64,000 bases of DNA from Polytrichum commune. Taxonomy: Eukaryota; Streptophyta; Polytrichopsida; Polytrichales; Polytrichaceae. Positions within the stretch are counted from its first letter, which is position 1; every line of letters starts with the position of its first letter. Shown piece by piece: positions 7,972 through 60,368 of the stretch. The notes beneath the pieces are model-generated. The model worked only from the letters and a program-made list of their open reading frames with translations. It had not been told where the DNA came from and made no database searches. The translations under genes were made by a program, and so were the position numbers. The stretch spans positions 69,914,033-69,978,032 of the forward strand of contig OX485804.1 of NCBI GenBank assembly GCA_950295325.1. The letters run 5' to 3'.

Positions 7972-10177
7972 TCTTATATTGGAGTGCATTTGGACCTACC
8001 AGAGTGCACAACTTGAAGCATTTGGGTCCCAAGAGTTGAGAGTGTCAGGCAGATTGCACGAACGAGTTTCACCATATGTCAAAAGTGTGGTTCCACCAAA
8101 GCGAAGCAGGCATGCAGAAAAGTGATCATATTGGAACAGGGCGCTTGTAACAGGTGGCCCTAGCAGACCTGGATGGACACCTACTCTTTAGTATTTCTTG
8201 AACCGACCAGCTTTCTCTTCATTTGTCTCAACATAGACACCACCACCATGGGCAGGAACAACAGACGTTTTTGGCTGCAATCAAGGGAAAAAGACAAGTA
8301 TCAAATCGATACGTGCATGACTTGGAGATTGAAATCTGCGAGAGTAAGGCAAAACCACATAGTATCATTTTTCATTAACAGAACAGGAAAACCCTGTCCT
8401 GATCACCTTCTCATCTGCGCTGATCTGCAGGGTATGCCCTCTACCAGGAATGAGCCGGTAGCCTGTGAAAAGTTTGAGCTTAAGCTTAATCAGTTGAGTT
8501 TTTGTTACCATCCTGGGGCTAAACAACACCTTGTACACATGGTAGTCTAATCTTTCCAACTTTTGAGGCAAATATGTACATAAATGTGGGTGTTCGAAGT
8601 CCTCGTTAAGTGCATCTGCACATCGACCTTTCAAATCAAGATGAATGGCTACAAAGTGGTTCTAGACCTTACTTTGTGGTGTGCCCTCTCGAATGGATGA
8701 TCCCAAGCACATTGTTCAATAATGAATCGAATATCTTGTCAAGTTCACTATGACCATTGTGGCTTAAGTTTCCAAGGAACATCTGAATTGGACCTCATTT
8801 TGTGCCACCAAATACTGGTAGCCAGTGTCCAACTTCGTGAGCATTTTCTCATGCCTCCATAAATGCGAGTGCTTAAAGATACAAGATGAAGCTGCAATTG
8901 GCACCTCAAAAACAACAAGCAACTTGGATCACGGAATTGTACATAAATAGATTCGATCTATGCATGTGATTCAATGAACTAAGGTATGTGTGCCTGATAA
9001 TGGACAATTGCAAGAGCCCCCATGCTAGTGCCAGACAGAATTATGTCAATAAAAATTTCAGCGATTAGCACATCTGCTAGGCGGCCAATGCAAGTGACTT
9101 AACCCCCCAAGAAGCCAAAAAGTGGTTGCGAGCATTTTTCAAAGATATATTTCTCGCACCTTGACATAATAAAATTCTGCATCTTCTAGAGCAAATTGAT
9201 CAAAATTTTGCAACGATGACTCTAAGATATGGACCTTAATTGGAACCCTTTATTGGTTTTTTTTGGGTTACAAAATTAGTTATTTTGGGGAAGTAACAAT
9301 GTCAGCAACATTAATATTGTTTTTAAAAAAAAAAAAAATTATCACCAAATTATGCAGCTCAAATTTTAAGTCAATCATATGAAAGACTGAGTGTTTGATG
9401 GATTTTGATGGATTTTGTATTTTTATTATTTTGAAGGAAAATGCTTGTAAATTGATAAAGATCCATATTCCAACCACATGGATGTGATTTAAAATCCACT
9501 CCCTAAAACTTTCTTTGGTATGCCAACACAAAATAAAATTTCCAATTCATACTTTATAGTACATCTTTGATTCAAGCTAAAACCCCCATGTTTTTAGGGG
9601 TTAAGGCATGTGCATATTATTTGATTTGTTTTCCATGTTCTTCAACTTCTACCAATTAGATTCAAACAACAAAACTTGTTTTGCAATAGCAAATCTACTG
9701 TGAAGCATAAGCTAATATCCAAGTAAAAATCAAAGCTCCCCTAAATTTGTTATGGTTATTGGAAGTGCATAATCGTTGATTTCTTAATTGAATGCATGGG
9801 TCCTCCCAATAGTGAACAATATTGAGTGCAAATTAGCTAATACATTCTGTAGATGTAGTCCGATCTTTTTTAAACATGTCTCATTGAACAACACACCCAT
9901 CAAATATAGGTGTCTGATTAAAGAAAATAACTAAATTACACCCGCATATCTTAGGGCCCGGTGGCACTCGCTAATTAGTAAACAATTTTAGCTTAGCTTA
10001 CATCCTTGTTAAGAAAAATTATGTCCACACTAGTTATGGCTAGTTAATTCCTACGTTGGTTTACTTACTATTTTATAATTATCTACCGGCCTACCCAACA
10101 TGCGTGATGGCCAAGGAGCTTCTAACTTCTTTTAAAAAAATTCTCTTTCTAAGCCTCCTCTCAGTGATCCGTAGGCC
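7972..10177. other. 3' region of the CCCH gene, then AT-rich intergenic DNA
   Basis: The 3' untranslated region probably begins here. A possible AATAAA signal is at 9049-9054, though polyadenylation could lie earlier. From about 9200 the sequence is AT-rich with short A and T runs, and no reading frame shows protein-like conservation. A run of 14 G (10178-10191) marks the right edge. Confidence 0.5.
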
Positions 10178-10640: not shown

Positions 10641-11652
10641 ATGACAAGGAGTTATGTATCAAATGATATTCGACACATGATATTTGGTATGCAGAAAGGT
10701 GGCATGTCAGTGAGTGAAATTAGAAACATTGTAGGAAGGCCAAAATCGACTATTTCAAGGATTCTCAAGAGATTTAGAATTAGTGGCTCTGTATTGCCAG
10801 CAAGTAGGTCCGGTGGCCGAAAAACATGAGTGATCGAGATAGGAGAAAGCTCCATAGAGATCTTAGTAGTAATCGTCGTGCTCCTCTTGCAGAATTGTGC
10901 AGCAATGTGACATCTTCCATGGGCATGTCAACTTTACGTAAAGAGCTTCATGAGCTTGGTGTTAACAGTTGCATTGCAGTGAAAAAACCATTCTTGAGTG
11001 ACATACACAAGGCAAAGAGGTTGGCTTTTGCAAAGGAGCACTTGCATCGGACGATTGACGATTGGAGTAATGTGATTTGGACCGATGAGTCATCCTTTGA
11101 AGTTGGAAAACCATCACGCCAAATTCGTGTCTGGCAAAAAGCATATGAACGTTACAACTACAATTGCTTAGCACCTACATTCAAATCCGGAAGGACTTCA
11201 ATTATGGTATGGGGTGCTATCACTGGCTCTTCTAAGTCTTATTTGGTGTTAATTCCTCCTAATAGACGCAGTGCCAAAGACTTTGTAGAGATAGTATCTC
11301 AAGGAGCATTAGAGCATTATTATTGGCACCATGACCACTATGAGCACCTCATTTTAATGGAGGATGGTGCTCCAGTACATGGTAGTAATATACAAAAAGA
11401 GTGGAGAGCGCAACTTGGATTGAAAAAGCTTCAATGGCCACCAAATTCTCCTGACCTTAATCCTATAGAGAATGTCTGGAAGCAAGTTAAAGATCAAGTG
11501 CAATAGAGAAATAGACCACGAAACAAAGACGAAATGTGGACATCGGTCAATCTGGCTTGGGAGGTATACCTCAAGAAAGCATCAAGAAGTTGATTTCAAC
11601 AATGCCAACCCGGATGAAAACTGTAATAGCAGCTCAAGGTGGTAGCACTTGA
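10641..11652 (+). pseudogene. Tc1-like transposase (DD34E), frameshifted relic
   Basis: The sequence reads as one Tc1/mariner transposase of about 337 codons after allowing three defects: a 1-nt loss near 10826 (after GGRKT), an in-frame TAG near 11504 after QVKDQVQ, and a frameshift near 11565. The N-terminal helix-turn-helix is clear (SVSEIRNIVGRPKSTISRIL). The catalytic triad is visible as WTDES, MEDGAPVHG and SPDLNPIENVW, with 34 residues between the second D and the E. The C-terminal STMPTRMKTVIAAQGG matches the usual Tc1 tail. I could not find its terminal repeats. It differs strongly in sequence from the element at 11927-13528, so it belongs to a different subfamily. The defects mean it cannot encode an intact enzyme. 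Confidence 0.85.
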
Positions 11653-11926: not shown

Positions 11927-13528
11927 CAGTGACTTCAAGAAATGAGTCTATGAGGGTATTTGATTTAGAAAAGTAACAATGTAGAGAGTATGAAGAATCA
12001 AAGCAATAAATTTTGAGCATGAAAGTTTGAGAGCATGAAGTACCTGACAACCTCAAGAAAATTGAAAAGAAATTGCCACTAGATTAAAAACATACATAGT
12101 GCCAAAGTTGACTATGTACATAGACTCATTTTCTGAGGCGTTATAGAAAGAGTGGTCAAAATCTTGTCCACTTTCCACGAGCAGCCAAAACAGCTGCAAT
12201 TCGATCTGGCATGCTAGCATACAATCTCTCACACTGCTCTGTAGTGATCGTCTTATAAGTCTCCTCCACACGCTCCCATAATTGCAAAAGACCTACAGGA
12301 GGAGTTGGATAGGAATTCAAACGATGTTTGAGAATTGCCCAAACATGTTCTATGGGATTTAGGTCTGGGGATTGAGCTGGCCACTCTAAAATAGTGAATG
12401 GTTGCTCTAAGAACCATTTCTGAACAATCTTTGCCTTATGTATAGGAGCATTATCATGCTGGAAAATGACGTTATCGAGGTTCAAGTATCCTAATCTGTC
12501 TAAACTCAAGTACAAATCTCCATGCAAGATTGTAATATAGTCCTTCGCATTTCTACGCCCATCCACCTTTAGTAAATCACCTACACCTCTTGTTGTCATA
12601 CAACTCCATAGCATCAAAGACCCTCCACCATGCTTCACTGTTTGCTTCACTGCACGATCAGGGAAGTTTTTTTGGTCATTGACCCAACACCAAGTCCTCC
12701 CATCCGCATTGAAACGATTTATCCTCGTTTCATCACTGAATACAACTCTCTTCCAATCCTCTATTGTCCACTCTTCATGAATTCTTGCAAATCGTAGCCT
12801 CTCTCCTACATTTTTATGTGACAAACAAGGCTTAGGAATCTTCTCACAGGCACTCAATCCAACATCTCTCAAAGCAGACCGCAAAGTGTTATCACAGAAA
12901 CCCACTTCTCTACCCTCTCTCAACACTTTTGTTGCCTATACTGCCATTTCCAGCCCTCCAACTGTGACCAAACGCACAACACGTCGTCTCTCTGAAATGC
13001 TAAGAATCTTTGGAACACCTCGTTTTGGCAATTCTAAGTTACTACAATGTTTCTTCCTCACTCTATTCACCGTACTCTGTGAGAAACCCAATGACTTCGC
13101 AACCACTCTTGTACTCTTACCTTTCATCAAAAGAGCAACAATATCTCTCACTTTGTCTCCTGAAATTGGCTTCATCATGCCAATTCTAATTCCTATTCTC
13201 CACAGTATGGTCCACAAGAAGGAAGAGAAGAGAAATCACAAAAAAATTCATCAAAAAACACAAATTTCTCTACACTCAGGTATGTTCTACACTCATGTGA
13301 AGTTGCTCCACAAGCCACCTCAAAAAATGAGTCTATAAGGGTACATGCACATTTGTGATCTTAACTCACAATGTAGATATTATTTAGGCAAAGCGCCATG
13401 TGGCATGTGTTAAGAGTGCATGAGGCACAATAGATTTTTTTGCTCGGCTTCATCCGCCTTAATGTTTCCCGGCTAGCCCCCATCAATGCTCCTTGATAGG
13501 GGCATTGACTCATTTCTTGAAGTCACTG
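11927..13528 (-). mobile_element. Complete Tc1-like DNA transposon, 1602 bp
   Basis: Both ends begin CAGTGACTTCAAGAAATGAG, forming a terminal inverted repeat of 22 bp before divergence, and each end is flanked by a TA dinucleotide (11925-11926, 13529-13530) as expected for Tc1/mariner target duplications. A motif AAATGAGTCTATG occurs at four symmetric sites: 11940-11952 (+), 12119-12131 (-), 13325-13337 (+, one change) and 13503-13515 (-, one change). The inner sites lie about 191-204 bp from each end, as in elements with two transposase-binding sites per end. It carries one transposase gene on the - strand. The length matches the usual 1.3-1.7 kb of the superfamily. Confidence 0.92.
12156..13178 (-). 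pseudogene. Tc1-like transposase (DD34E) with a single internal stop
   Basis: Starting at the ATG at 13178 (MMKPISGDKVRDI), the frame runs 341 codons to the stop at 12156, broken only by one in-frame TAG at 12936-12938. A helix-turn-helix (STRVVAKSLGFSQSTVNRV) is followed by the catalytic domain with FSDETRINRF, QHDNAPIHKAK and SPDLNPIEHVW. Exactly 34 residues separate the second D from the E. The tail ASMPDRIAAVLAARG is typical. The length of about 340 residues is standard for Tc1. The stop lies in a TAGGC context and could derive from CAG by one C-to-T change, a site plants can methylate (CHG). Otherwise the gene looks intact, so the insertion is fairly recent. Readthrough or an intact sister copy elsewhere is possible but unproven. 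Confidence 0.88.
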
Positions 13529-29083: not shown

Positions 29084-32000
29084 CTATGGCAGGCGTTGAA
29101 GGCCTGCATTAGTGGCTGATAAGACAAGGGGATGCACAGTCTTAGTGAAGATGGTGGCATCCAGCCTTTCGATGAGCAACCAGACCTCATTGGAGTACTC
29201 ACGAGAGATGGCACGGAGGTAGCCCAGTGTGCACTTGCGCCATTGCATTTCTTCCTGTGCAGTCGTGAACAGGTCCGTGCCATTCGTGACATCACCACCC
29301 TTCTGTGGAACACTTTCGCTTTCCATGGGAGTAGTGTCTTCTTCAACTTCTTCCATTGCGGAAGGACCATCAGCATCCCTTTCCGAAACATCAGCTTGTT
29401 CAGGAGCCTGCGATTCTTCTGGCAGTGGTTTTGCGAGGCGTTCGTTCAATAAATCTGCAAAGCTCTGGTAGACAGCCAGGAACAAGGCCTCCTGTTCTCG
29501 CAGCGCCCTGGCAAGGAGCGCCTCTTTTGCTTCCAGGGAATCCTGTGTGGATGTCTCTTCATCTTGCGCTTTGTCGGCAACCGTCTTCGCCCAATCGACT
29601 TTTGCACTAGCTGGGCTGCGAGCTTCATCGGTTTTTGCTGCCTTGAGCGCCTCAACAGCTGCTTCCCACTTCACATGGGCTTTCGCAGTTGCGGCCACGG
29701 CTAACTTCAATGCCTTCTCTGCAGCCAGGACTTCGCGCCGAAGGTCCACTGTCCGGTTGTTGGTTTTGTTGATGGCATTCCGCAGAATCTCCCACAAATG
29801 GTCTGAGGTGTGGAAATGCTGCACATTGTGGGGGCTGAAGACCCAGGCAACTATGGCCAAATTGGACACCATGCGGTAGCCCATCATGCGGTCGATGACA
29901 ATGGCACTCATCTGCGCAGAATTCCTCCACAGCTGTGACACCGAGGTGATCATGGCCACCTGTGACACCTGGTCAGGTGCTATTTTCCTGAAGATCTGGC
30001 CATACTTCTCCAGGACAGTAATTGTGTGTGTGAAGCTCTTGGCGCCAATATACAGTAAGGTCTGCACAACGATCTGAATCGATGCCTGCTGCCCTTGGGT
30101 GGGCAGAATGTGCTCGTCAATCCACACTTGAATCTCGCGCACCGTTTTCTTGCCCCTAACCAGTCCTGTGAGCTCTGTTGCGAGCGCAAATTCGGCTTCA
30201 GGAACCAACCCTTTTCCCTCTGCTCCGTATGCATACATGGGCGTGTTCTTTGGTGGCAGCAGCTCAGCAAGCTTTGGAGTGGCCACAACACTGTCTTTGA
30301 TCTTATCCCAGTATGCCAACCGCACCTCCTTCTCTAGCACCTCCTTTGCAAACACCCGGCGAGGTGACCACACAGGTTCCTCCAGAATGTGCGCCCACTC
30401 TTCCCACGGCCACACGAACTGGAAATTTGAGAGATGATGGGACAGCCACTGCACCAGCCGCGTCCGGCACTCCACATCCATCTCTGCCACTCTGCTGAAC
30501 AGTGCCCGCACAGCCCCCGCCACCACAGCAGGGAAAGCACCTGGGAGTGCCTTGCAGAGGTCCACCATGACCACCGTGTAGTAGATCAAGCGGAATGGTG
30601 GCTTCGGCAGGAGGAGCAGCTGTGAGAACACCGTCTCTGCCATCAAATATTCATACCGAAAGGGCACTGGGAGACCCACCATGTATGCTGCGCACTCCTT
30701 CCTGCAACCATTGAGGTGGAAGAGCACGTCCAGGAGATACTCTTCCACCACGAACCTGAAACAGTCAATTGCACAAAAAGAATTCAGCACAAAGTTGCCA
30801 ATGCTTTTGGAAGTGGCGCCAGTTCAATGCAACTATGTTTTGTAGCTTATAGCCGACTCCGAAACTTAATTGTGCACTGTTTTTGACATTTGTTACATAT
30901 TGCTGGAGTTTGTCAGGGTTTAAAGCAAACCCTACTACTTAGTCTGCATGTAGAAAGAAGAGCAGGGGTTTGGCAAACAATGTAGCCATGTATGTCGACA
31001 GTGTTTGATTCTGAAGAGTACGGGTTGTGGTCACCAATTCATGCTGTTGCGGCATCAGTGGCATGTAGAAGTTACGATTCATCAATACAACTAAATTCTG
31101 CCATGAACCATAATTCCTACAACTCAATTCTGTCATAACATCGAATTGAGCAAGCATGCGTTGGCAAGTTCTGCCAATTCAATGCAACTAACAAACTGAC
31201 TCCGAAACTTGATTGTGCACTGTTTTTGACACGTTCCATTCTTGTGGACTTTATGAGGGTTTAGGGTAAACCCTAATTCTTAGTCTGCAAGTAGAAAGAC
31301 GAGCAGCGATTGCGCAAACAATGCGGGCAAACAATGTGAGCAGTAATTTGATTCTAAATTGCAGTGGTTGTGGTCACCAATTCCTTTTGAGGCATTTAGA
31401 AGATAATGAACAATTCAATTCCGCCACGAACCTATCGATGGGTGTCATCTTCTCGTCGGTCTTGGCGGCGGGGAAGATGTGGAGGCGCACGAGCCGCCGT
31501 GGGTACATGCGCTGGGCCTCCTGGCGCTGTCGCCCTAGGCTGATGGCAGTGGCGTCCGGGGGAGGTTTGGGAGTTTCGGGCACACTCACTGGGCCGAAGT
31601 CGTGGCTCTGCATGGTGGCCAGGCGCGCTTCGAAGACGAGGTGGGGACGAGGCACGCTGTCCACTTTCCAAGCGCCAGCCATGAGCCCCTGCACGCGCGA
31701 CCAGAGATCGTCGAGGTAGTCCTCGCACTTGGTGGTGTCCTTGTCGTCGACTGGCTCAAACACCTGCAGGGACGTGTACGTGAGCGGCTTTCGCAGATTG
31801 AGGTAGGCCTCCACCCCGTTGAGGACTCGGTCGAGCTCCTCGGGGACGCGCTCTGCCAGCTCCATTCCCCCCCACGGCAGAGACGCCAGGATGCAGAAGA
31901 CATAGAAATCGGCCCGCGATTGCCACTCGGGATTGCCGTTCTCCTCATCCACGGTAGTGGCAGCTGATGACACCAGCGCTTCGTACAACTCTATCAGGCT

Positions 32001-47899: not shown

Positions 47900-47918
47900 C
47901 CTTTCCTGTGGGGGAGTG

Positions 47919-47981
47919 CTATCTTATGAGCGGTGAGCAATGAGCGGTGAGCGATGAGCGGTAACTTATGAGCAGTGAGGA
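47919..47981 (+). repeat. Left terminal repeat: heptamer array RTGAGCR
   Basis: After CTATCTT the sequence divides into 7-base steps: ATGAGCG, GTGAGCA, ATGAGCG, GTGAGCG, ATGAGCG, GTAACTT, ATGAGCA, GTGAGGA. The right end carries the inverted equivalent. The regular 7-base phase and the matching variant GTAACNN at both ends argue against chance. Confidence 0.75.
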
Positions 47982-48106
47982 AGATGAAAATTTTGGTAAT
48001 AGGGCCACCAATATCCTATAACCGTGGAATTGTGGCCTTAAAAATGATGATTTTAGGGTTTAGTAATAAGAGGGTTGAAAGGATAAACAACATGAAGTCC
48101 AAAAAT

Positions 48107-51100
48107 TTATTCATCAGTAGTAGCACTAGACATGAAACTATCTTTTGCCTCGTCATCTATATATATTCGAGCACCTTTGCATTGCGAATTGATTTTGGAA
48201 CTATAGCAAGATTCTTCATTTGGATCCGAATCTTCGAGATTCAACATTGCAATTGCAACATTTTCGGCATATGATGGGAGACGCGGGCTACGGTTTGGAC
48301 TTCGTAGGAATTGTCTATGTGCCCAAAACGGGAGACATGTCCTCTTTCCAATCGTATTCCTGAAATCAAATCGATGAAACATGTAAATAATGTGAAGAAA
48401 TAAAAATGAACCAATGAATTGAATGAAACGAATAAATTGAATAAAAATTTATTGTATTAAAACTTACTCACACTCAAATTCAAGCATCTCCTCATCTGAG
48501 AGGTTATCATCTTCTTTTGTGAGATCTTGTATATTCTCCTTAGATGACCCCTCTTTCAAAACGTTTTCCAAAAGCGGTTTCAATATGTGCTCAAACATGT
48601 CATTATCACCCTCAAATGCAAGAAGATGTCTGCCACATGCGAGTGTTGCTAGGATAGAAGCTCCAGTGGAACATGTCAAATCAACAACGCGTCCATTCGA
48701 TGGTGTAAACAATTCAATAAGATCTTGAAAAAAAACGCGGCGATTTTTTATATGGCCCCCTCCAAGGTCTTCTTGATTTTTTAAGAAGCATGTTTTTGTC
48801 ATCCACAAAATTGAAAAGCAAGTTTTTGCTTTTCAATCCAGTGCCAAAAAAAATGGAGTTTGGTTGTTTCGTGGATTTTGTGGTAGTAAAATCCCTTACC
48901 AAGACATGAGCCATAAATGCCGGAGTCTACAAAAAAATGTAAATTGTGTTAAAACTATATACAATGCAAATAACACCAAAATAATTAAATAAAAACAATT
49001 GTGATGTGTTATACTTACGGTGTAGGTTGGAGACTCCAGATCCTTGAACACCATGTACGAATTGAGGCAAATAAAAGTCCTAAGAACTTTCATGTTGCCG
49101 TTGTGTAAGGTTGAATTCAAAACCTTCTTGGTTTGCATATCGATAGCAGAAAATACTATGAGGACGTCATCATCAAACAAGATGGACTTGCACAAGGACA
49201 TTGTTGTAACCATCCAGTTCTTGTCATATTTATTCCAAAGAGGAATTTCAACAGGTCTATTGGAGAGGTTGAAGTCAAGACCGTCGGGAAATTGCAAAAA
49301 ACCCAAATCAACGGCAAATGGAGTCGGACTTCCCATGACATGAAATTCGCGATTGTCTTTGAACTGAAATACCACAACATATTACAATATAAGACACAAA
49401 ATAAAATCCAAATGAAAGTAAGAACATTACAGAAAATACCAAAACAATAATACTTACGTTTTCAAGAAATGCCCGCCATTGGATCCACTCAGGAGGGCCT
49501 ACTTCAACCCCTTCAGACTTGTTCTTGACAGTAGTAGATCGAGCAAAAAAGAGCGTGAGAAAGTTCTTCAGTATGAATAATTTTTTTCTCAAAACATTCG
49601 TTGGCGCACGATGAATAGCGTCATAGGTGCTCGAGTAATGAAATTCCAATACATCGCACCCCGACTTTGAACTTTCGCCTCCAAGTGGATTCTTATCCAA
49701 ATCATTAGAAAGAACAAGCTATTCTTCATGTTGTGAAATTTCCGATTGATCTTGTATTTTGGTTTCAGGAACATTTTTCCTCTTACGACGTTTTGTCTCT
49801 TTTGGTTCTGGCTCTCTAAGTTTAAGCTAATTGCAGTATCACGAGGATCCACATTTTTAGCATCATTTATCTGACGGATTGTCTTCTCACTTGACGGACA
49901 TGCATCCTTAGGACAATCAAGATACCAACCATAATCCTCATAGTGTGGAAGCGACCAATCCAAACAAATCTCAGTAGTGAACATGCATGAATCTCCTGCA
50001 CCAGTGTCACGCCAATTTGGGAAAAAAACGAGGTTCCCCTATAACGCATTTATGTGTAATAAAAACATATCGAAAATACCTACACACAAAAATATTGTAA
50101 GTCAAATATTCCATGACAATTTGATAAATGAAATAAAAAAAATCAAAAAAATAATAAGATTAGGTTGTACCTGTATAATACACGTTTCATAGCAAGATCA
50201 ATATTAGGTTGCTCATCCCAACCGTTGCGTTTTTTAACTTTTTCCGCTTTGGAATTCACGATAGAATATTGAATTGAAAGCCGCAAACTTCCAGGTTTGG
50301 ATATACTCGGAGAGAGTAGGCACATCTGCAGGCAACTGAAGAGGAGATGAAAGAATACTTTGAAGGTCTTCGATAGCATTTTTTTCCAACTGTGCCCAAT
50401 ATGTAGACTTTGATAACCAATCATCAAGTGTAGAATCAGAGAGGCGCGATTTCGGGAAATGCAATGCATCTTTGTCAAATCTATTGTCATTCCAAAGCTT
50501 GAGCCATCCAACTTTGACTTCTGCATCCACATTACTGACAGCAACACGATGAAGTTTCTCTTATAGCATTTCAGGCACCGAAAATGAACCCCAATGGTGC
50601 TTAACTTCTTCAAGGAAAGCAGAGGTAAAGTTGATATCGGCTACCGCTAGTTGTTTCGTAAAACTAGAAGATAACATTGCACGTTTTTTGTTGACAGCTG
50701 CGGACATTGCTTTTGAAACTCCGTCTGATGTCCGTTGAAGAGGATGAGTTTCATTGTACTGGTTGAGAACAATATCGCTAGCCTCAGCAAGTTGTTGCTC
50801 AAAAATCAAACAAAAATCAATATTTATAAGTACATATAGATGTAATGTAAAATGAAAATGAATAAACATAAGACACATATTAGCAATAGTAGAAGAATTT
50901 ACACTGTACATGTAATCCAAAAAAATTGGTCGTGTCAAAGAATACCAAGTTTCGACGGACTTCTCCTCATATCGTTTATAACTCTTCGGATCCAGTTGCT
51001 TTCTGAAGGAAATCAAATGCATGGTGCCAATACTTTGCATCCGATATAAAGTATGCACCAAATTGGTGGATACGTGAGAATTTTCGGTTGACTTGAAAAG

Positions 51101-51910
51101 AACATTAAATTGATTAGATTCATGATGATATAATTTGGAAAACAAAATATAAACTAGAAATAAGTGTAAAAAATAGATAAGAACATTACTTGTTGATGTC
51201 ATGCATAGCAGTCAACAAACTTGGAATGTCGTGAGGCTCGGGCGCCAAAATGATAGAATCCACAAAGACATGATGTTCATAATCTTCGGTATATACGCGG
51301 TCAATATAATTTTTCCAAGCAAAAAATCTGTGATTTCCATCCCATATAAAAAACATCTTGTTCTTGTATGACGTCAATGACAAATCTGTATCCAATTGAT
51401 ATTCAAATAGGGCATTGGCTTGAGCCCAATTTGGGCTCCAAGATGCATGAACCTTATCATCCACGAATTGAAAGTTTCCCTTATAATCGGTGGCCGATAT
51501 ATAAAACACACGGTCACCATCACGATAACCATTGAAAAAATCAGCCTCCAATTTAGTAATGTCACCCTTCAAAGCAGGACACACAATCGGCATAGGAACC
51601 ATGTGACATAAGGGTACACGCAAGCGAGCATTAGGTCCAGCACGGATTGAGGAAATTGTGGAAGTGGAATTGACCTTTCGTTTCTTCGTAAGCTCCCACA
51701 CTTCCTCTTGATAAATTTTATTGTCACCATCATTATCTTCATCCGAGTCAAAATCATCAAGGCATTCATTTTTTTCTTTTTCTTTTTCTTATTATGAAGA
51801 TTTGACGATATGTCCTGATGATGATGAACTTGTTGAGATGGACGATCTTGAGTTGAATGCATTGTGGAATCATCATCAGTAGAAAAATGAGTCGTTCTTT
51901 CCAAATCCAT
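48107..51910 (-). pseudogene. ParB-like plus N6A/N4C DNA methyltransferase-like gene, decayed
   Basis: Exons inferred on the - strand: 51910-51190, 51091-50903, 50797-about 50170, about 50030-49458, 49363-49019, 48926-48900 with an uncertain junction, to 48468, and 48359-48107. Several introns (about 80-105 nt) have GTAAGT donors and TTTCAG or TTGTAG acceptors. The N-terminus has a poly-Lys tract, then FFIWDGNHRFFAWKNYI (DGNHR at about 51341-51327), resembling the ParB-like DG-R-A motif. The C-terminal part shows the permuted beta-class order: a degenerate motif IV (GSPTPFAVDLGFLQF, about 49330), ILFDDDVLIVFSA, then FFQDLIELFTPSNGRVVDL (motif I region, about 48727-48676, where DPFCGSG is usual) and CGRHLLAFEGDNDMF. 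Damage includes a shift in the A-run near 51785, TAA at 50561-50563, TAG at 49719-49721, and frameshifts near 50250 and 49820. The methyltransferase call is moderate and the ParB-like call weaker. Confidence 0.5.
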
Positions 51911-52128
51911 TGATTGGTCCTAAAACAAATGAAATAAGTTTCATAAATATTTCAAAACCAGTAGCAACACATTACAAATAACATTACAAAAACAACAGCA
52001 ATAGCAACAACAATAACAACAGAATACCACGAACACAGGGAAGAATGACAAAAACTATTCTACACTGCCATTTGCACCTTTAAATATTGTACGATTATGG
52101 TGGCCGCTCACCCCAAAACTACAAGGGC

Positions 52129-52156
52129 AGACCCTGTGCGTTAACGCACAGGGTCT
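52129..52156. repeat. Perfect 28-bp palindrome, central region
   Basis: The half-site AGACCCTGTGCGTT is followed directly by AACGCACAGGGTCT, with no spacer. The core matches the repeat unit of the 53.3-54.0 kb array. It lies between the two divergent genes, just upstream of the presumed 5' end of the methyltransferase-like gene. Confidence 0.85.
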
Positions 52157-52194
52157 CTGTGTCCAACTACAGGTCCACCAAAGTTCGATGCGAG

Positions 52195-52442
52195 GTTTGG
52201 GTCGAATGACCCAAACTAGGCACACAGTTTGGGTCGTTCGACCCAAACTAGGCAGACAGTGTGGGTCCTTCGACCCAAACTAGGTAGACAGTTTGGGTCG
52301 AACGACCCAAACCATGCTCAGTGTTTGGGTCGTTCGACCCAAACCATGGAAACAATTTGGATCGAACGACCCAAACTAGGCACACAGTTTGGGTCGAACA
52401 ACCCAAACCATGCTCAGTGTTTGGATCGTTTGACCCAAACTG
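52195..52442. repeat. Eight 32-bp units, each with a 10-bp inverted repeat
   Basis: Units start exactly every 32 bp at 52195, 52227, 52259, 52291, 52323, 52355, 52387 and 52419. Each contains GTTTGGGTCG-NN-CGACCCAAAC, with TT or AA usual at the centre, followed by a 10-base linker such as 'taggcacaca' or 'catgctcagt'. Most copies have zero to two changes, and some are compensating or symmetric. The same unit occurs at 57195-57312. It could act as a dimeric protein-binding site, but no function is shown. Confidence 0.9.
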
Positions 52443-52671
52443 TCCGCAATTTACGCCTGATTATGCGCAATTACCCAGTCATCACGAAAGTGCAAACAAA
52501 CCTTGTACTGCACGTGTAGATGAGAGAGCTTGCAGCGATAAGCTCAGGTCCGACAAAGGAGAGAAAAAAGACTGAATGCTTTGGGGGTGTGGCAATTTAT
52601 ACTATTCGTCCCTGCAGCCATATTTAGCGTGGCTCTTCGTGGCCCCGCATAGCCGCTAGAAAGTTGCGAGC

Positions 52672-52703
52672 GTAGACCCTGTGCGTTAACGCACAGGGTC
52701 TAC
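52672..52703. repeat. Perfect 32-bp palindrome plus imperfect copies
   Basis: The half-site GTAGACCCTGTGCGTT is followed by its exact reverse complement. An imperfect copy lies at about 52739-52766, and weaker GTGCGTTAGCGCA forms at about 52790-52830. All share the TGTGCGTTAACGCACA core with the array further right. Confidence 0.85.
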
Positions 52704-53281
52704 TTGCCCAATTTTGCGAAACCTCTAGCTAGGCAAGTAGACCCTGTGCGTTAACTCACAAGGTCTGCGCTGGCAACTTTCTAGCCACTATGCGTTAGCG
52801 CATAAAGCCTGTGCGTTAGCGCATAGACCGAGACATGAATTTGAAAAAAATCTTTTTTTTTTTGGTTTTTTTTTTTTTTTAAAGTCTGGAATTCGTAAAT
52901 TTGGCAAAACTTATAAAATCTGGAAAAATGTCTAATGGGGTCCAAAATAAAATAAAATATGCTATATTATCTAAATCTCCGTAGCTATAAATTCTTCTTA
53001 TATTTTGTTTTGGTTTGAAATGATTTTCTTTTCTCATTCTTCTATCTATTTCCTTGTTTTGGGCCACCTCGTAGATTTTGGGTTTCAGGGCAAAAAAAAA
53101 ATTATGCTATTTTGTGTCATTTACTAATTCCTGTAACGTATTGTATGAGTACTTGAGTAGTCATATTTCTCATTTCTTGCATTCTAACCCCGTTTTCAAT
53201 AGTTTTTTTGCTCCTACGTTCTGAACATCAATTTAAATTCATACAATAGATATTTGTTTTAGTTTTAGGCTCTCCTAGTCG

Positions 53282-54045
53282 TTTTACCTCCCAACTTTGG
53301 CCTTCCTAAGTTGCGCTTACAAACCCTGTGTGTTAACGCACAGGGTTTCTCCTCCCAACTTTAGGCTTCCTAAGTTGCGCTTACAAACCCTATGTGTTAA
53401 CGCACAGGGTTTCTCCTCCCAACTTTGGCCTTCCTAAGTTGCGCTTATAAACCCTGTACGTTAACGCACAGGGTTTCTCCTCCCAACTTTGGCCTTCTTA
53501 AGTTGCGCTTATAAACCCTGTACGTTAACGCACAGGGTTTCTCCTCCCAACTTTGGCCTTCCTAAGTTGCTCTTACAAACCCTGTGCGTTAACGCACAGG
53601 GTTTCGCCTCCCAACTTTTGGCCTTCCTAAGTTGCTATTACAAACCATGTGCGTTAACGCACAGAGTTTCACCTCCCAACTTTTGGCCTTCCTAAGTTGC
53701 TATTACAAACCATGTGCGTTAACGCACAGAGTTTCACCTCCCAAATTTTTGCCTGCTAAGTTGCTCTTATAAACCCTGTGCGTGAACGTACAGGGTTTCC
53801 CCTCCCAACTTCTCGCCTCCTAAGTTGCTCTTATAAACCCTGTTCGTGAACGTACAGGGTTTCACCTCCCAACTTCTCGCCTCCTAAGTTGCTCTTATAA
53901 ACCCTGTGCGTTCTTCTTCTGACTTCTAGCCTTCCTAAATTTCTGTTATATACCATGTGCATTAACGTATAGGGTTTCTCCTTTCCAATTTATAACCTCT
54001 ATGAATTGCTACTACATGACATGTGAGTGAACGTATAAGGTTCTC
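53282..54045. repeat. About twelve 64-bp tandem units centred on a 28-bp palindrome
   Basis: The palindrome centre (TTAACG or TGAACG) recurs at 53333, 53397, 53461, 53525, 53589, 53654, 53719, 53783 and 53847, then in a truncated unit near 53911 and in degraded units near 53962 and 54028. Each palindrome has the half-site AAACCCTGTGCGTT and its complement. Between them lies the linker CTCCCAACTTTGGCCTTCCT-AAGTTGC with small changes. The left copies are most uniform and the right ones progressively degraded. The open frame at 53489-53695 is a by-product of the repeat. No gene is seen in the array. Confidence 0.9.
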
Positions 54046-54122
54046 CGTCCTAACTTACAACTTATGCACTATCAAATTATGTGAACGTTGAACTGACTTA
54101 CCTTTTTGTTTGTTGTCTTTTT

Positions 54123-54383
54123 TTAACCTGTCTTCAATTCGGACTTTGATATACGATCGTCTACATCTTCTTTGTTCTTTGCACCTTCATCATCCTCCAT
54201 CGCATCAAAATCCAGTGTCTTCACAGTTTCTTCTACCGTACTCAATAAGTTTTTTTTCCCTTCTTTATTTGCATCATTTTTTCCCACACTGAGTCTGAAC
54301 CTCTTTTTCTCAGAAGTGAAATACAAAGCTTTCCTACGTTTTCTCTTCGGCCTCACGGGTGTTTTCTCTACATCGTCCACCAT
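54123..54383 (-). CDS. Small basic/acidic ORF with a nuclear localisation-like motif
   Basis: The 86-aa frame starts at an ATG (MVDDVEKTPVRPKRKRRKAL). It has a strong basic cluster RPKRKRRK at residues 11-18 and an acidic C-terminal half (FDAMEDDEGAKNKEDVDDRI). No domain is recognised. It reads toward the palindrome array and away from the transposase gene, on the strand of the methyltransferase-like gene. A GTAAGT donor-like site follows shortly after, so it could be a first exon spliced across the arrays, but the phases I could test did not join. Mixed acidic/basic tails like this are common in chromatin or DNA-binding proteins, but that role is speculative. Confidence 0.35.
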   Translation of the reverse strand: MVDDVEKTPVRPKRKRRKALYFTSEKKRFRLSVGKNDANKEGKKNLLSTVEETVKTLDFDAMEDDEGAKNKEDVDDRISKSELKTG

Positions 54384-54905
54384 CGTTGGTGTCTATGATA
54401 TGTTTTTTATCAGGTACTATCATTTATTCTTCCAATGTATCTATCTTACAAAATCCGGCGTATATTACGATCACATGTTGTAATTGGCGTTCAATGAACG
54501 AGATATTTCGACGCGTTTGTCATTATGTGTTTATTTGTGTTATATCCGCCAAAATTTTCTGACTCCTACTTTGTTCTATTTATAATGATCAATAATTTAT
54601 TTTTCCAACCAATTTTAATTCTTTCAACATCTACGTTAGTCCACACATATATATTTTAAATTTCTACCAATACTTTTAGTATTTAACGTCATTTTGTGTA
54701 TATCTTGCTCGTAAATATTCTCTGACTATTATTGTATTATTTCCACTTCTGTATTATTAGATGCTATGTATCACACGTTTTCATCTTCATCCATTATTGT
54801 ATCACAGGTTTTCATTTCCATTCATTTCCTCACACAACTCTATACAAAAGCAACAATCACCCCATATTTTTGTGATGTGTTGTTCATATGTTCTTTTGAT
54901 TTTCT

Positions 54906-57900
54906 ATGGCTACCATTAGAGCTCATGGATCTTTTGTTCCCTTCATCTTGCCACTCCAAGATGATGGTCATGTGAGTGTTTCAGAGGATTTACTTAGTTT
55001 GAGATTCAACCTTCAGATAGGAACCATGTATTTAGAGCATGAAATGTACTCTGCAGATGGAGAGGTGTATGAAACGATTTTGGTTCCAAAAAATAGAACT
55101 GATGTTGGTTTATGTGGATCTTAGGACCTGGTTCATTTAGGGTGATAGGACTTTCTGAGTCTCAGATGCAAGCTTCAACTGTCATTTTGACAAACGAATC
55201 CGGTACATCCACAGTTCAAATTCCCTCTATCACACCTGTTAAGGTGGAACCCCTTGATGATAGTGTGTTTGTGCTATTAGATTCAAAAGATGACATTTGT
55301 GCATCTGTTGATCTTTCAAACACATCGCCATTTCCATTTAGAAGTGTTTATTCTACTCCTTCCCAACTTCCTATACATGTAGCCAAATCCCCTTGCGGTC
55401 TTATGTACAAGAAGGTGGTTCCCCAAATCTCACCTTCTCAACGTCCTCCACTACACCCTTCACCTTCATCTACAGGGTTGACTATGGTTGATGCCTTGAA
55501 GCTGACAAAATCAAGAAAAAAATCAAAGTCCGATCTTGCATCCATTGATTTTGACAGTATAGATGTTCGTGAAGTCAAGTACTTACCATCTTCTTTTAAT
55601 GGTGATGTTTTATTTATGTTGCCTCCAGTGGCACTCAAAGCTCCAAGTACGTATAATCGCTCAATGGACGGCATGGACAAGATGTGCGACGGTCACCCTT
55701 GGTGCACCACCAAAACCACAAATGTCCAAAATGACTTTGGACTGTCCTTTCGGCGCTCTACTTGTGTTGTTCATCTCCAATGTCATAATGACTACTGTGA
55801 TTACGTGAATCGCAATGGGGGCCTCCGGAACAACACTGAATGGGTCTGTTCAACTCCTATCCCATTTGCTGTGGGTATTGTTCCTCCTACTAAGTCCACT
55901 GTCGAGTGTAAGGTATGTCGTTCCACACCTGTATTCATTGCTTTGTGTAATGCTCGAATCATATACATCCACTCCACATCCGTTGGAATGTCCAGGGCTT
56001 ACATTCATCTTGGTGTACATGATCACCCTATGGCCAATGGCACATGCCGTGAATCATTGGACATGGCATACCAATGCGTTGCAAATGAAGTAATGAAAAC
56101 ATCCCCATCAAAAAATTCATCCATAGTTATGGCGGCGAGCAAACAATTCTTGGCCGATTACCTTCTCAAATCTCCCGCAAATGTCGAAGGTCATCACTTG
56201 GTTGGTTCATCCCTAGAGGTCATCATGGACAAATTCAGCATTCTTGCGTCTCCAAATTGTCGTAACTTTGTATCTGGATCAAAGCGTTTTTTGCGTAGTG
56301 GAATGAGAACTATGGATAGTATTATGGCGCTCAAAGACCACTCTGCTTTCAAATTCGTCCATGGTAGTCGGTTCCCATAGCAGTCAAAGGACAAAGTGTT
56401 TGTTTTCAAGATGTCTGTAGACCTTCCAGGTAGTGGTATGGAGCTTGTGAAGAGGATGCAAGTCGGTGGGGATATGGAGAATTCATAGATTATGTTTGAC
56501 CATGTCAAACGTTTGAAGGACTGGACGACCATGGCTTGCCATGTGTACGACAGGCGATACTGTAAAGTGTTGACTATTGCGTGTTGTGACATGCAATCTG
56601 AAGATGGTGCAGCACAAATTCTCTTTGGGAAAAATTTGAATATTGTCATGACAAAAAATGGTGTACCAAACGTAAACTTCAAAGGGTTTATGGCTGATAG
56701 TGCTCAAGTTAATTGGAATGCGATGAGGGCGATTTACGGGGATGGTGATCCAAGTCTATCCATGGTTGCACGTGAGCGTACATGTCTTTTCCATTGGTCC
56801 GCAAGCTTAGATAAGGTGACCCAAAAGTATATCAAACCATCCTTGCAATTTCAACACAAACAAATATGCAAGGATTACAAAGACGCGAAAACAATGGACG
56901 ACGCTGAGAGCAAGTACCATGTGATTCGTTCTTGGTGGTTGTTATCTGGAGCTGCCTCCGAAGAAGGCATCCTTGCCTTTCAGAGTGGTTGGGATTTTGG
57001 CACTTTCGTTATAGACAATGGGGTGGCCATATGCTACTTGTAAGTACATATCAAACTTCATTAGTCAATGTAACATATCTTATGTTTTTCTTATCTTTGT
57101 CTTTCTGTGTTGTTCATAGGATATGATAATAAAAAAGCGTGTGGGAATGCCAACATGCAACCTTGTAGAGACTGTACACAACAAACAACAAACAGTTTGG
57201 GTCGTTCGACCCAAACCTTGTATGCAGTTTGGGTCGAACGACCCAAACCTTGTAGGCAGTTTGGGTTGTTCGATCCAAACGTGGCAGCCATTTTGGGTTG
57301 AACGACCCAAACCTAGATATATAATCTATCTTATGTTTGTCTTATCCTTATATTTGTGTGTTGTTCATAGGATATGACAATAGAAGAGCGTGCGGAAATG
57401 CCAACATGCAACCTTGCAGAGACTGTAGACAACAAATGGCTCCAACAGTCCGGCAACAAAATGACTTGTTTATATGAAGATACAGTGGACGACATGATCC
57501 GTGCCTTCATGCAAATTGCAAATTACCGGACATGGTTGAAAGGGGGGTCTGATGGTAAAGGTCCTGATTCGGCCTCCTTGAAACTCAAAGCAGCTGTCAG
57601 GTGTGGAGATCCAAAAATGTTGGCCGATGCCATGAAGTCTTATCCAGGGGCAGAAGATGTCAACACGAGATATTGTGCATTGGAAGGGTCAGAGCTCTTT
57701 GGTTCCACCAAACGCAAACTCAACCTACCACCGGGTGCTGATTGTGACTCTCATCAACCCGACAAAGTGAACTATTCCATTCCTCGTCCCAACACCCGAG
57801 CAACTCGTCAACGCATAGAGGAATCGTTGAGTTCTGCAATTCATGGTGTGGCTCATACTACATCCGTGTTAGAGACTAATTGTCTTGCTTCTAAGTGGCA

Positions 57901-58712
57901 CATTATAAGATTGCCACCCAATTCAGCCAAACGTTGTTGGGCACTGCATGTCATTACAGGGACTATGTGCAATGCCAAAGTCGGGACTGGAAAACATGGC
58001 ACACCTGCTCCAACATACAAAGGGCTCAGGAAGGAATTTCGCTCTCCCACAATGTGGAGTATGAATTTTGGTTTTGTCCTGACGACATCAAACGTTGTGT
58101 GAGTGGCAGTAAGAAGAAATATGTGTTGGATTGGCCTATAGTATCCAACACGTGGCCAGTGAAGATAGGTACCAATCTATCGAGAGAGGAGGTTTTGGCA
58201 CTTGAAGATGCTGGATTTCAACTACAGCAGAGGAGGCATTGTCTCCTCGTCGTAGGCTTTCAACAATCGCAACTCTTCCCATCCCTCGCTCGCATTTTTC
58301 TATGCCACCAAACCCAGACGCCCACCCTACATTCAGATTTGGGAAGACAGTGCGTCGTAATCCAACAACACCTCTGGCGGATCACAAAAACAAATGGGAG
58401 AGCGCCGGACTCATGGAAGGTTACTATGTGGTTGGGGTCACTGCCATTCCATATCCGGGCTTTGGAGTGATAATTAACATTGTCTCCAATCAAGATATCA
58501 CCTACCATGTCACAATTGGCGATATCCCGCATTGCACATGTCCAGATTTCACGAAAATGTCCTCTCATGCATTGGAAAAGAAAGGAAAATGGGTGTATTG
58601 TAAACATCTTTATTATGTGTTTAGATTTTTGTGCAAGGTGGATTACGAGAGTGACAAGTTCATTCATGCACCTACATATACCCTCGGGGGGTGCACTTTC
58701 ATTAAAACCTAG
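54906..58712 (+). pseudogene. MULE-type transposase with SWIM zinc finger, decayed
   Basis: The gene begins MATIRAHGSFVPFILPLQDD and continues after a frameshift near 55112. A Cys/His-rich N-terminal region (CDGHPWC ... VVHLQCHNDYCDYVNRNGG) precedes the catalytic core, which shows KGFMADSAQVNWNAM (second catalytic D) and RTCLFHW, the C-x2-H block diagnostic of Mutator-like transposases. A frameshift near 56975 leads to FWHFRYRQWGGHM, followed by an intron from 57041 to 57370. Downstream, NKWLQQSGNKMTCLYEDTVD and further frameshifts lead to a SWIM finger CTC-x19-CKH (58533-58607). In-frame TAG codons lie at 56378-56380 and 56486-56488. The gene is therefore inactive in this copy. It would have supplied the DNA-cutting activity of the element. 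Upstream non-coding DNA is shared with the palindrome arrays. Confidence 0.75.
57195..57312. repeat. Second 32-bp array (four units) inside the transposase intron
   Basis: Units begin at 57195, 57227, 57259 and about 57291, the same 32-bp phase and the same 10-bp arms as at 52195-52442, again with TT or AA centres. The array interrupts a tandem duplication: the segment starting at the intron 3' end (gttcatagGATATGA) and running to ACTGTA-ACAACAAA occurs before the array (57112-57190) and again after it (57364-57440). Confidence 0.88.
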
Positions 58713-58924
58713 AATCACGTGCGTTCACTGCATACTCTAAAAACCCCCTATATACAAGTTATTTTTTGTGAAATGAAGTAATACACATACAATTGCAACA
58801 ATAAATATACAAGTGACAATATGTATACACAAAAAAACATCCATTCATATATAGTCATTAACATAAGTATACAAATATACTTTTGAACAATAATCAACCC
58901 CTATAATATGTATAACAAAATATC

Positions 58925-59188
58925 CTAGCTTTCATCAGCAAATTCATTGAAAACTTTTTCATCTCCCGGATGTAACTCATAAACATTTGATTCACCAATA
59001 TATGTCATTATAGCCAATGCAATTATTGTCTCTAAGTCTACCATCAAATGATCAGTAAGATCATATGTCCACTTGTTGTTAGCCCCTTTTTGATACCAAC
59101 ATAAACCAATCTCCACGTTTGATGGACGGTCCATCAAGTCAATTGGATCCCTATACTCCACCCAACGATTACAAAACTTCCTCCGCAT
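58925..59188 (-). CDS. Small conserved ORF of the element (homologue at 23052-23375)
   Basis: The 87-aa frame runs MRRKFCNRWVEYRDPIDLMD to KVFNEFADES. The frame is open a little further upstream, so it may be the last exon of a longer gene. It matches the + strand ORF at 23052-23375 over most of its length (RW--R-PIDL, VD--, -EL-P-DE---NEF--), and both end at the same place. It lies tail to tail with the transposase, about 210 bp after its end. No known domain is recognised. It is likely an element-encoded accessory protein, but its role is unknown. Confidence 0.5.
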   Translation of the reverse strand: MRRKFCNRWVEYRDPIDLMDRPSNVEIGLCWYQKGANNKWTYDLTDHLMVDLETIIALAIMTYIGESNVYELHPGDEKVFNEFADES

Positions 59189-59410
59189 CCAATATGAAAA
59201 CTTATGATATGTAGTATAGTAACAATACCATACAAGTACAATTATTGTATACTTTTTAAAGGCCTTCCATATATGTACGTAACTATAAATTATAACATGT
59301 ATACCATATGTATATGTAATACGGCAAGGTCCAAATCAATACCCCTCCTGTGCACTCACGTATACTCGTACATGTTTAGTATAGTGCACCCCCCGAGCAT
59401 ATACCTATAA

Positions 59411-60145
59411 TGAGGTCATGCGACTACTTGAACTTGTTGGTATTGTAGAATGTGAGTAGTATTGCAAGTGTTCTATTAAGTAACATATATTTGAATGTCA
59501 ATAAATGACATGTTTTGGTTTGGATTATTATAATAAAAATTAGCAGTGGACTGAAAGTATTTCAAATGATTCAGTAACTTCATTTTTATTTAGACTGCGA
59601 CCCAACCATGTGTGGTTTGATTGATTCATACGGATAAATAATAACACGTTTCTAAAAATAAAAAATAATTAGGAAGATTCTACGCATATTCGCGTAGTAA
59701 CGTCTTCTTGGTATCCGCCTATAGATTATTTCTGCTTTATCACTAGCTCAATTTGGGATAGCACCAGTCAATGTAACCAACCGGATTCGAACCCGGGTTG
59801 ATCCAGACCTAATACCAGTCTCTTACACAACTCGCATCCACAGGCGGATGTCTCAAAACCTAGTAGCTACCTACATATTCATTATTTCTAATATCTAATT
59901 TTCTTTCTTTTGTAGATTCTGGGCCTTTATTCAACCTGTGGGCAGTTTGAGTGGCTCACAATTATGGCACCGACATATATGTATAATGCGGTTATGCACC
60001 TACTTGAATTTGCTGGTGTTGTAGAATGTGAGTAGTTGTACAAGTGCTAGTTGTAGCTATATGTATAAGGATGTCAATAAATGACAAGTATTGGTTTGAA
60101 TTATTATAATAAAAATCAGCAATGGATTGAAAGTGTTCTAAATGA
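59411..60145. repeat. Direct duplication of ~165 bp near the right end of the element
   Basis: 59411-59575 and about 59980-60145 share 'gtagaatgtgagtagt', 'gtcaataaatgaca' and 'attattataataaaaat.agca' in the same order. The intervening 400 bp include a tRNA-like segment, so an insertion or tandem duplication within the subterminal region is likely. Confidence 0.7.
59757..59860 (-). other. tRNA-like (SINE-type) promoter segment, low confidence
   Basis: On the - strand a B-box-like GGGTTCGAATCC follows about 40 bases after an A-box-like GCGAGTTGTGTAAGAGAC. The T-stem pairs imperfectly and no matching acceptor stem was found, so this is not an intact tRNA. A tRNA-derived SINE or degraded tRNA is the best reading. 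Confidence 0.35.
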
Positions 60146-60263
60146 TCTATGGAAATAGGGCCCTTTCACTTGTGCTTCATTTAAAATATTGGCAATTTAC
60201 AATTGAAAATATGCAATTAATTTGTCAAAAATTTGGTTGTAAACCCTAAACCCGTGTGTATTT

Positions 60264-60343
60264 ACTAAATTTGGATTCATTGCTCATATGTTACTGCTCA
60301 TTGCTCATGTGTTACTGCTCACTGCTCATCGCTCATAAGATAG
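60264..60343 (-). repeat. Right terminal repeat: inverted heptamer array
   Basis: Read on the - strand it gives CTATCTT, ATGAGCG, ATGAGCA, GTGAGCA, GTAACAC, ATGAGCA, ATGAGCA, GTAACAT, ATGAGCA. This matches the left end in motif, phase and first 13 bases. Confidence 0.75.
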
Positions 60344-60368
60344 CTTCCCTCCTTTCCTGTGGGGAGTG

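Follow-up and report, generated by a model that had tools for sequence, protein, structure and literature searches.

The window analyzed here, a stretch of 64,000 nucleotides from the moss Polytrichum commune (G000:C2:69914033-69978032), carries a transposon of 12,441 bp that spans positions 47911 (GGGGAGTGCTATCTTATGAG) to 60351 (GATAGCTTCCCTC) and contains two divergent genes. The gene on the + strand encodes the transposase of what is most likely a Mutator-type element, and the gene on the - strand (from here on the second gene) encodes a protein in which a putative ParB-like domain, recognizable by the residues DGNHR, precedes a methyltransferase-like domain. The pairing of the two genes, which the first-pass annotation had proposed from the window copy, is general in the genome, lies far beyond chance and is conserved in two diverged subfamilies, the second of which (B) is ~43% identical to the one found in the window (A).

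The genome that was searched comprises 408 Mb on 64 contigs, and all matches seen fall on seven contigs of 42 to 78 Mb each, a number that would agree with seven chromosomes in Polytrichaceae. Copy and pairing counts are lower bounds, as the best ~150 candidates were scored. For subfamily A, 129 rows were used, after removal of 5 second fragments and of 16 rows that belong to the other subfamily, and scored against the 150 transposase-exon matches listed. A transposase exon was found divergently upstream, within 15 kb, in at least 88 of these 129 second-gene copies; the other orientation did not occur and the transposase was on the 3' side once, where random placement gave 0.33 with a maximum of 2 in 500. 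For subfamily B, 128 of the 150 listed rows were used (22 rows at 43-44% were dropped) and scored against 149 typed rows of 150 transposase N-terminus matches. Here, a divergent transposase N-terminus was present within 15 kb in at least 55 of 128 copies, with one case of the other orientation and four of a transposase on the 3' side; random placement gave 0.45 with a maximum of 3. Against full fidelity of the pairing speaks that 62 of the 150 listed transposase matches had no listed match to exon 1 of the second gene within 15 kb. At the loci recovered via the left terminus, the two main methyltransferase exons (5 and 6) both occurred just inside the terminus in 28 of 30 cases and exon 7 in 29 of 30, which speaks against the two genes being housed in separately bounded elements. 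In one subfamily B copy (L067-L065, G000:C6:18775700-18793699) the transposase side contains tandem repeats of 229-234 bp, as well as frames that we take to be retrotransposon-like.

The first-pass annotation had noted inverted termini as well as a direct repeat on either flank, and both hold. Terminal inverted repeats of ~70 bp, composed of short ATGAGCGG-type repeats, were aligned at 47911..47980 and 60280..60351, and are flanked by a perfect 10-bp target-site duplication CTTTCCTGTG (47901..47910 on the left and 60352..60361 on the right). Such 10-bp duplications were present in all three copies of which both ends were available; the ends are the same in each and the duplicated sequence differs, two further copies having other sequences at the same offset. 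A search of the genome with the left terminus yielded 645 first-look candidates and 40 scored matches, the latter 99-100% identical.

The assignment as a Mutator-like element (MULE) is based on the 10-bp duplication, which lies within the 9-11 bp expected for MULEs, on the terminal inverted repeats, and on the transposase motifs, of which the DDE and C-x2-H residues and the SWIM-like finger were identified by eye. The transposase consists of exon 1 (54906..57039, + strand, ends approximate; MATIRAHGSF..., with D, D and C-x2-H), the N-terminus of which is conserved in the second subfamily, and exon 2 (57371..58682, + strand) with the SWIM-like finger, which forms a 455-aa open frame in two other copies and in many rows of the genome search. 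Two results qualify the label: the catalytic core had no Pfam match at E 10, and the SWIM matches in Pfam (E 0.016 and 0.041) were both under the cut-off. Thus, of the MULE core and SWIM finger that had been claimed for the + strand gene, the C-x2-H and the finger are visible in the sequence, and the support from Pfam is absent for the former and sub-threshold for the latter.

The window copy is broken, as both genes carry frameshifts or stops (several in transposase exon 1) and the 3' end of the transposase gene is interrupted at 58683. The 715-bp insert found there (58683-59397) has inverted ends (CTCGGGGGGTGCAC/GTGCACCCCCCGAG) and, on its flanks, a duplication of 8 bp, CATATACC (58675-58682 and 59398-59405); it is another small DNA transposon and is absent from both other element copies that were compared. 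Downstream, sequence of the transposase 3' end is repeated close to the right terminus, as a direct repeat of 173 bp (59398-59570 and 59974-60146, 80% alike). Between copies the divergence is mosaic: when window positions 50711-51511 were compared with L061 and L063, the copy on C3 was 85% alike at exons 1-2 and 97-99% at the left end, as if segments had been exchanged through gene conversion.

The structure of the second gene was derived from copy L061, in which it is intact, lies on the strand opposite to the transposase and comprises seven exons that encode 1076 aa, with GT-AG boundaries in all introns. The - strand gene of the first-pass annotation is therefore real and includes the DGNHR residues reported. 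Its exons map to window positions 51910-48107, where the frame is broken by frameshifts and a stop. All on the - strand, these are exon 1 with the ParB-like DGNHR domain (51190..51910; frameshift within a poly-K stretch), exon 2 (50903..51092), exon 3 (50171..50797; a stop and a frameshift), exon 4 (49459..50079), exon 5 with methyltransferase motifs IV to VI (49019..49363), exon 6 with motifs X, I and II (48468..48926; 1-bp frameshift) and exon 7, the C-terminal tail (48107..48359; 98.4% identity to L061).

Exons 1-3 of the second gene are under purifying selection. Pooled dN/dS relative to L061 was 0.16, 0.06 and 0.16 for these exons (based on 29, 29 and 26 of 30 copies, all distinct and full-length), and the frame was open in 11/29, 14/29 and 12/26 copies. 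For exons 5-7 pooled dN/dS in another set of copies was 0.37, 0.63 and 0.31 (27 of 29 copies), with open frames in 23/27, 14/27 and 25/27; these values cannot be compared with those of exons 1-3, because the former set was selected on terminus identity and has a far lower dS (0.02-0.05) and the latter was selected on exon-1 similarity.

The homology of the C-terminal domain to N6A/N4C methyltransferases of the PF01555 type was seen in three profile searches, in agreement with the earlier suggestion of a permuted methyltransferase-like domain; an absence of such matches would have spoken against that suggestion. Spliced exons 5-7 matched PF01555 in Pfam (E 3.4e-4, under the curated cut-off), exons 5-6 matched phrog_67 in PHROG (E 2.8e-8), and the alignment of the two subfamilies matched DpnA (E 2.3e-6) and CcrM (E 0.11) in the PDB. 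No match came from a PDB search with a single sequence nor, at E 0.001, from a search for homologues of the complete conceptual protein. With tblastn, 53 phage records were matched (best E 3e-3); in 19 of the 20 that were listed the matched region is annotated as a methylase or methyltransferase, and the remaining record is unannotated. The motifs are arranged in the order IV-VI followed by X-I-II, which the second gene shares with the phage and bacterial N6/N4 enzymes DpnA, CcrM and phrog_67. Closer to home, the protein KC19_5G032000 (P0213) of Ceratodon purpureus shares its methyltransferase-like domain with subfamily B, as judged both by eye and with a profile, and is annotated with PF01555, but it is a hypothetical protein of 205 aa that does not include the motif IV site.

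The catalytic motif IV of the N6/N4 methyltransferases has the family signature [DNS]PP[YFW]. The first-pass annotation had taken GSPTPF as the motif, a candidate that was rejected because motif IV falls ~10 residues further on when the sequence is aligned with subfamily B and two phage enzymes. At the aligned site subfamily A has VDLVFLQFPDGF and B has LDLILADIPEGL, where the two phage enzymes have IIADVPY and ILTDLPY (D[VL]PY); in other words, D or E takes the place of the aromatic residue, giving QFPD in A (QFPDG with the next residue) and DxPE in B. The signature was absent from A, from B and from all 83 database relatives that cover the site (a further 11 of the 94 do not): 48 had D-x-P-E-G, 12 had QFPDG, 22 had other variants and one had QFPYS, which is aromatic. 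Both the PF01555 and the phrog_67 match start downstream of the site. In the loci examined, in which two copies were counted twice (L007/L061 and L041/L063), 28 of 31 rows had an identical motif I (VVDLTCSTGAS) and 28 of 30 an identical motif II (HLLAFEGDNDMFE); the glycines of motif I are altered. The scaffold is thus conserved and the catalytic signature absent, from which we infer inactivity: the product of the second gene is METHYLTRANSFERASE-like and probably not catalytic.

For the N-terminal domain the residues DGNH were invariant across 106 aligned sequences, and a domain-sized profile of exons 1-2 matched 694 proteins in the database at an E of up to 1, 120 of which were listed. The Pfam scans returned no ParB family, the rows being sub-threshold matches to NTR2, MRC1 and lipocalin; the profile comparison with the PDB produced no ParB, its rows all having E values around 1 or higher; and the viral fold library gave no match at E 0.001. 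Exon 1 of the window, folded alone, was uninformative (pLDDT 31). The DGNHR residues, the order of the secondary-structure elements and weak matches to the ParB/sulfiredoxin fold hint that the domain may belong to that fold.

The center of the element, which had been described as palindromic, is indeed filled with palindromes. When 18-bp palindromes with no more than one mismatched pair are counted, the element contains 13, compared to 0.7 in shuffled sequence, and the part of the window that precedes it (1-47910) contains 6, compared to 2.5. Two classes can be discerned. Class 1 (TTGGGTCG-NN-CGACCCAA, with a spacing of 32 bp) adjoins the start of the second gene, where the array at 52134..52440 also includes a class-2 palindrome, and recurs in the transposase intron (57187..57312). 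Class 2 (CTGTGCGTTAACGCACAG) sits in the center, mostly as tandem repeats with a spacing of 64 bp (52679..53870). Among the distinct copies L031-L060, class 1 was found in 29 of 30 and class 2 in 30 of 30 with up to 4 mismatches, and as exact units in 29 and 27 of 30. One copy of subfamily B has 85-bp repeats instead, with GTTAGAATCTAAC in their consensus, upstream of and within the second gene. The spacings of 32, 64 and, in B, 85 bp would be close to whole helical turns. Changes in the palindrome arms were mostly one-sided (178 versus 6 compensated, and 143 versus 5, with the same two copies counted twice), so that hardly any compensatory changes were seen and selection for a hairpin is not indicated.

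Genome-wide, GTTTGGGTCG-NN-CGACCCAAAC occurred at 9231 exact sites and its reversed control at none. The first 100 class-1 sites listed comprised arrays near copies of the family and three large clusters without a listed match. These clusters (C1:616-626k, 1180-1190k and 2115-2125k) are arrays with spacings of ~36 to 78 bp, and no second-gene or transposase match was listed there. A 2.1-kb segment beside one of them (L083) has two stretches, of 119 bp (68% identity) and 27 bp (93%), in the same order as in the element center, and over its first 460 bp it matches, at 96.5%, the DNA that flanks another copy; it is probably a diverged relative of the element with the same palindrome.

The arrangement recalls a known anti-silencing system. 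VANDALs are Mutator-like. In Arabidopsis VANDAL elements the accessory gene for VANC lies next to the transposase gene, as in the moss element, and the targets of VANC are tandem repeats upstream of VANA and in the introns of VANB and VANC (PMC5735166, PMC10398659). The iterated palindromes of the moss element likewise occupy non-coding parts and are candidate targets of the second protein. The two differ in that the motif of VANC21 is a 9-mer in a single orientation rather than a palindrome, and the available part of the VANC description mentions no methyltransferase-like domain; the likeness is regarded as an analogy. On this analogy, and because the accessory protein is conserved, the subfamilies have different iterated motifs and the promoter and intron motifs recall VANC, we favor sequence-specific binding followed by anti-silencing. 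The second protein would bind the palindromes between the genes and in the transposase intron and thereby likely prevent silencing, a proposal that we consider close to evenly balanced. Either the DGNHR domain, with its presumed ParB/sulfiredoxin fold, or the methyltransferase-like domain would recognize the palindromes as a dimer; the latter domain would act as a non-catalytic, perhaps SAM-binding, DNA-handling module; and the outcome may be a local opening of chromatin or a loss of host methylation, as VANC achieves for VANDAL.

It is unlikely, albeit worth considering, that the protein instead helps transposition itself, by loading on the central repeats like ParB on parS and bridging or partitioning the ends for pairing by the transposase, with silencing as no target. 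A role as transposition helper has often been assigned to mudrB, and the strict divergent pairing and the iterated, possibly helically phased palindromes would suit it; however, the repeats are internal rather than terminal, the termini have short repeats of their own that could serve the transposase, and 62 of the 150 transposase copies lack a listed partner. Less probable still is the suggestion of the first-pass annotation that the enzyme is active, as an N6-adenine or N4-cytosine methyltransferase, and modifies the palindromes of the element itself in order to direct the transposase or escape silencing. The motif order, the retention of motifs I and II and the purifying selection on the second gene would agree with it, and PMC12477816 likewise proposes for such proteins that they bind the transposon encoding them and modify it epigenetically. 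Self-methylation is nevertheless considered improbable because none of the 83 relatives has [DNS]PP[YFW] at motif IV, and the start of the Pfam and PHROG matches past this motif and the altered glycines of motif I weaken it further. Gene capture is common in Mutator-like elements and many copies are broken (exon 1 is open in 11/29 and exon 6 in 14/27), but a captured passenger without function for the element is scarcely credible, being contradicted by the dN/dS of 0.06-0.16 in exons 1-3, the same orientation in subfamilies at 43% identity and the 694 proteins (120 listed) that match the exon 1-2 profile at E 1 or better.

The module as such is not unprecedented in transposons. As far as the description in PMC12477816 goes, Sola1-1_Ec32 of Ectocarpus has a gene of 1104 aa on the strand opposite to the transposase that encodes a ParB-like domain and an N4C/N6A methyltransferase domain, thus resembling the 1076-aa protein of the moss element in organization and size, and similar proteins of green and red algae are mentioned there, which may form a new class of accessory proteins. 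The differences are that the transposase is of the Sola type and the host is a brown alga; by this description, with which the comparison was made, neither motif IV nor palindrome arrays are reported. In the open-licence PMC literature we found no ParB/methyltransferase gene in a Mutator-like element. Of the novelty originally claimed for the pair, the combination with a Mutator-type transposase may hold; the module itself has precedents.

Elsewhere in the window, open frames at 10808-11506 (+) and 12156-12935 (-) presumably represent Tc1/mariner transposases, and a long open frame at 29084-30823 (-) is what we take to be an exon of the cap-binding protein CBP80.

Accessory proteins are one route by which transposons survive host defence. 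Tentatively, and with more doubt than confidence, the data can be read as a ParB-methyltransferase module of prokaryotic origin that became a non-catalytic, sequence-specific anti-silencing factor in a land-plant lineage of Mutator-like elements, reinventing the VANC strategy independently, with the operator GTTTGGGTCG-NN-CGACCCAAAC at more than 9000 sites and common to several element families. If true, this would constitute a second, unrelated plant route to sequence-specific anti-silencing, employing a module of bacterial type of which the scaffold was kept and the catalytic motif lost, and the module would provide a compact means of DNA targeting. As the family offers two palindromes at thousands of sites, numerous copies whose frames are open, and diverged subfamilies with differing repeats, the co-evolution of protein and operator would be directly testable in it.

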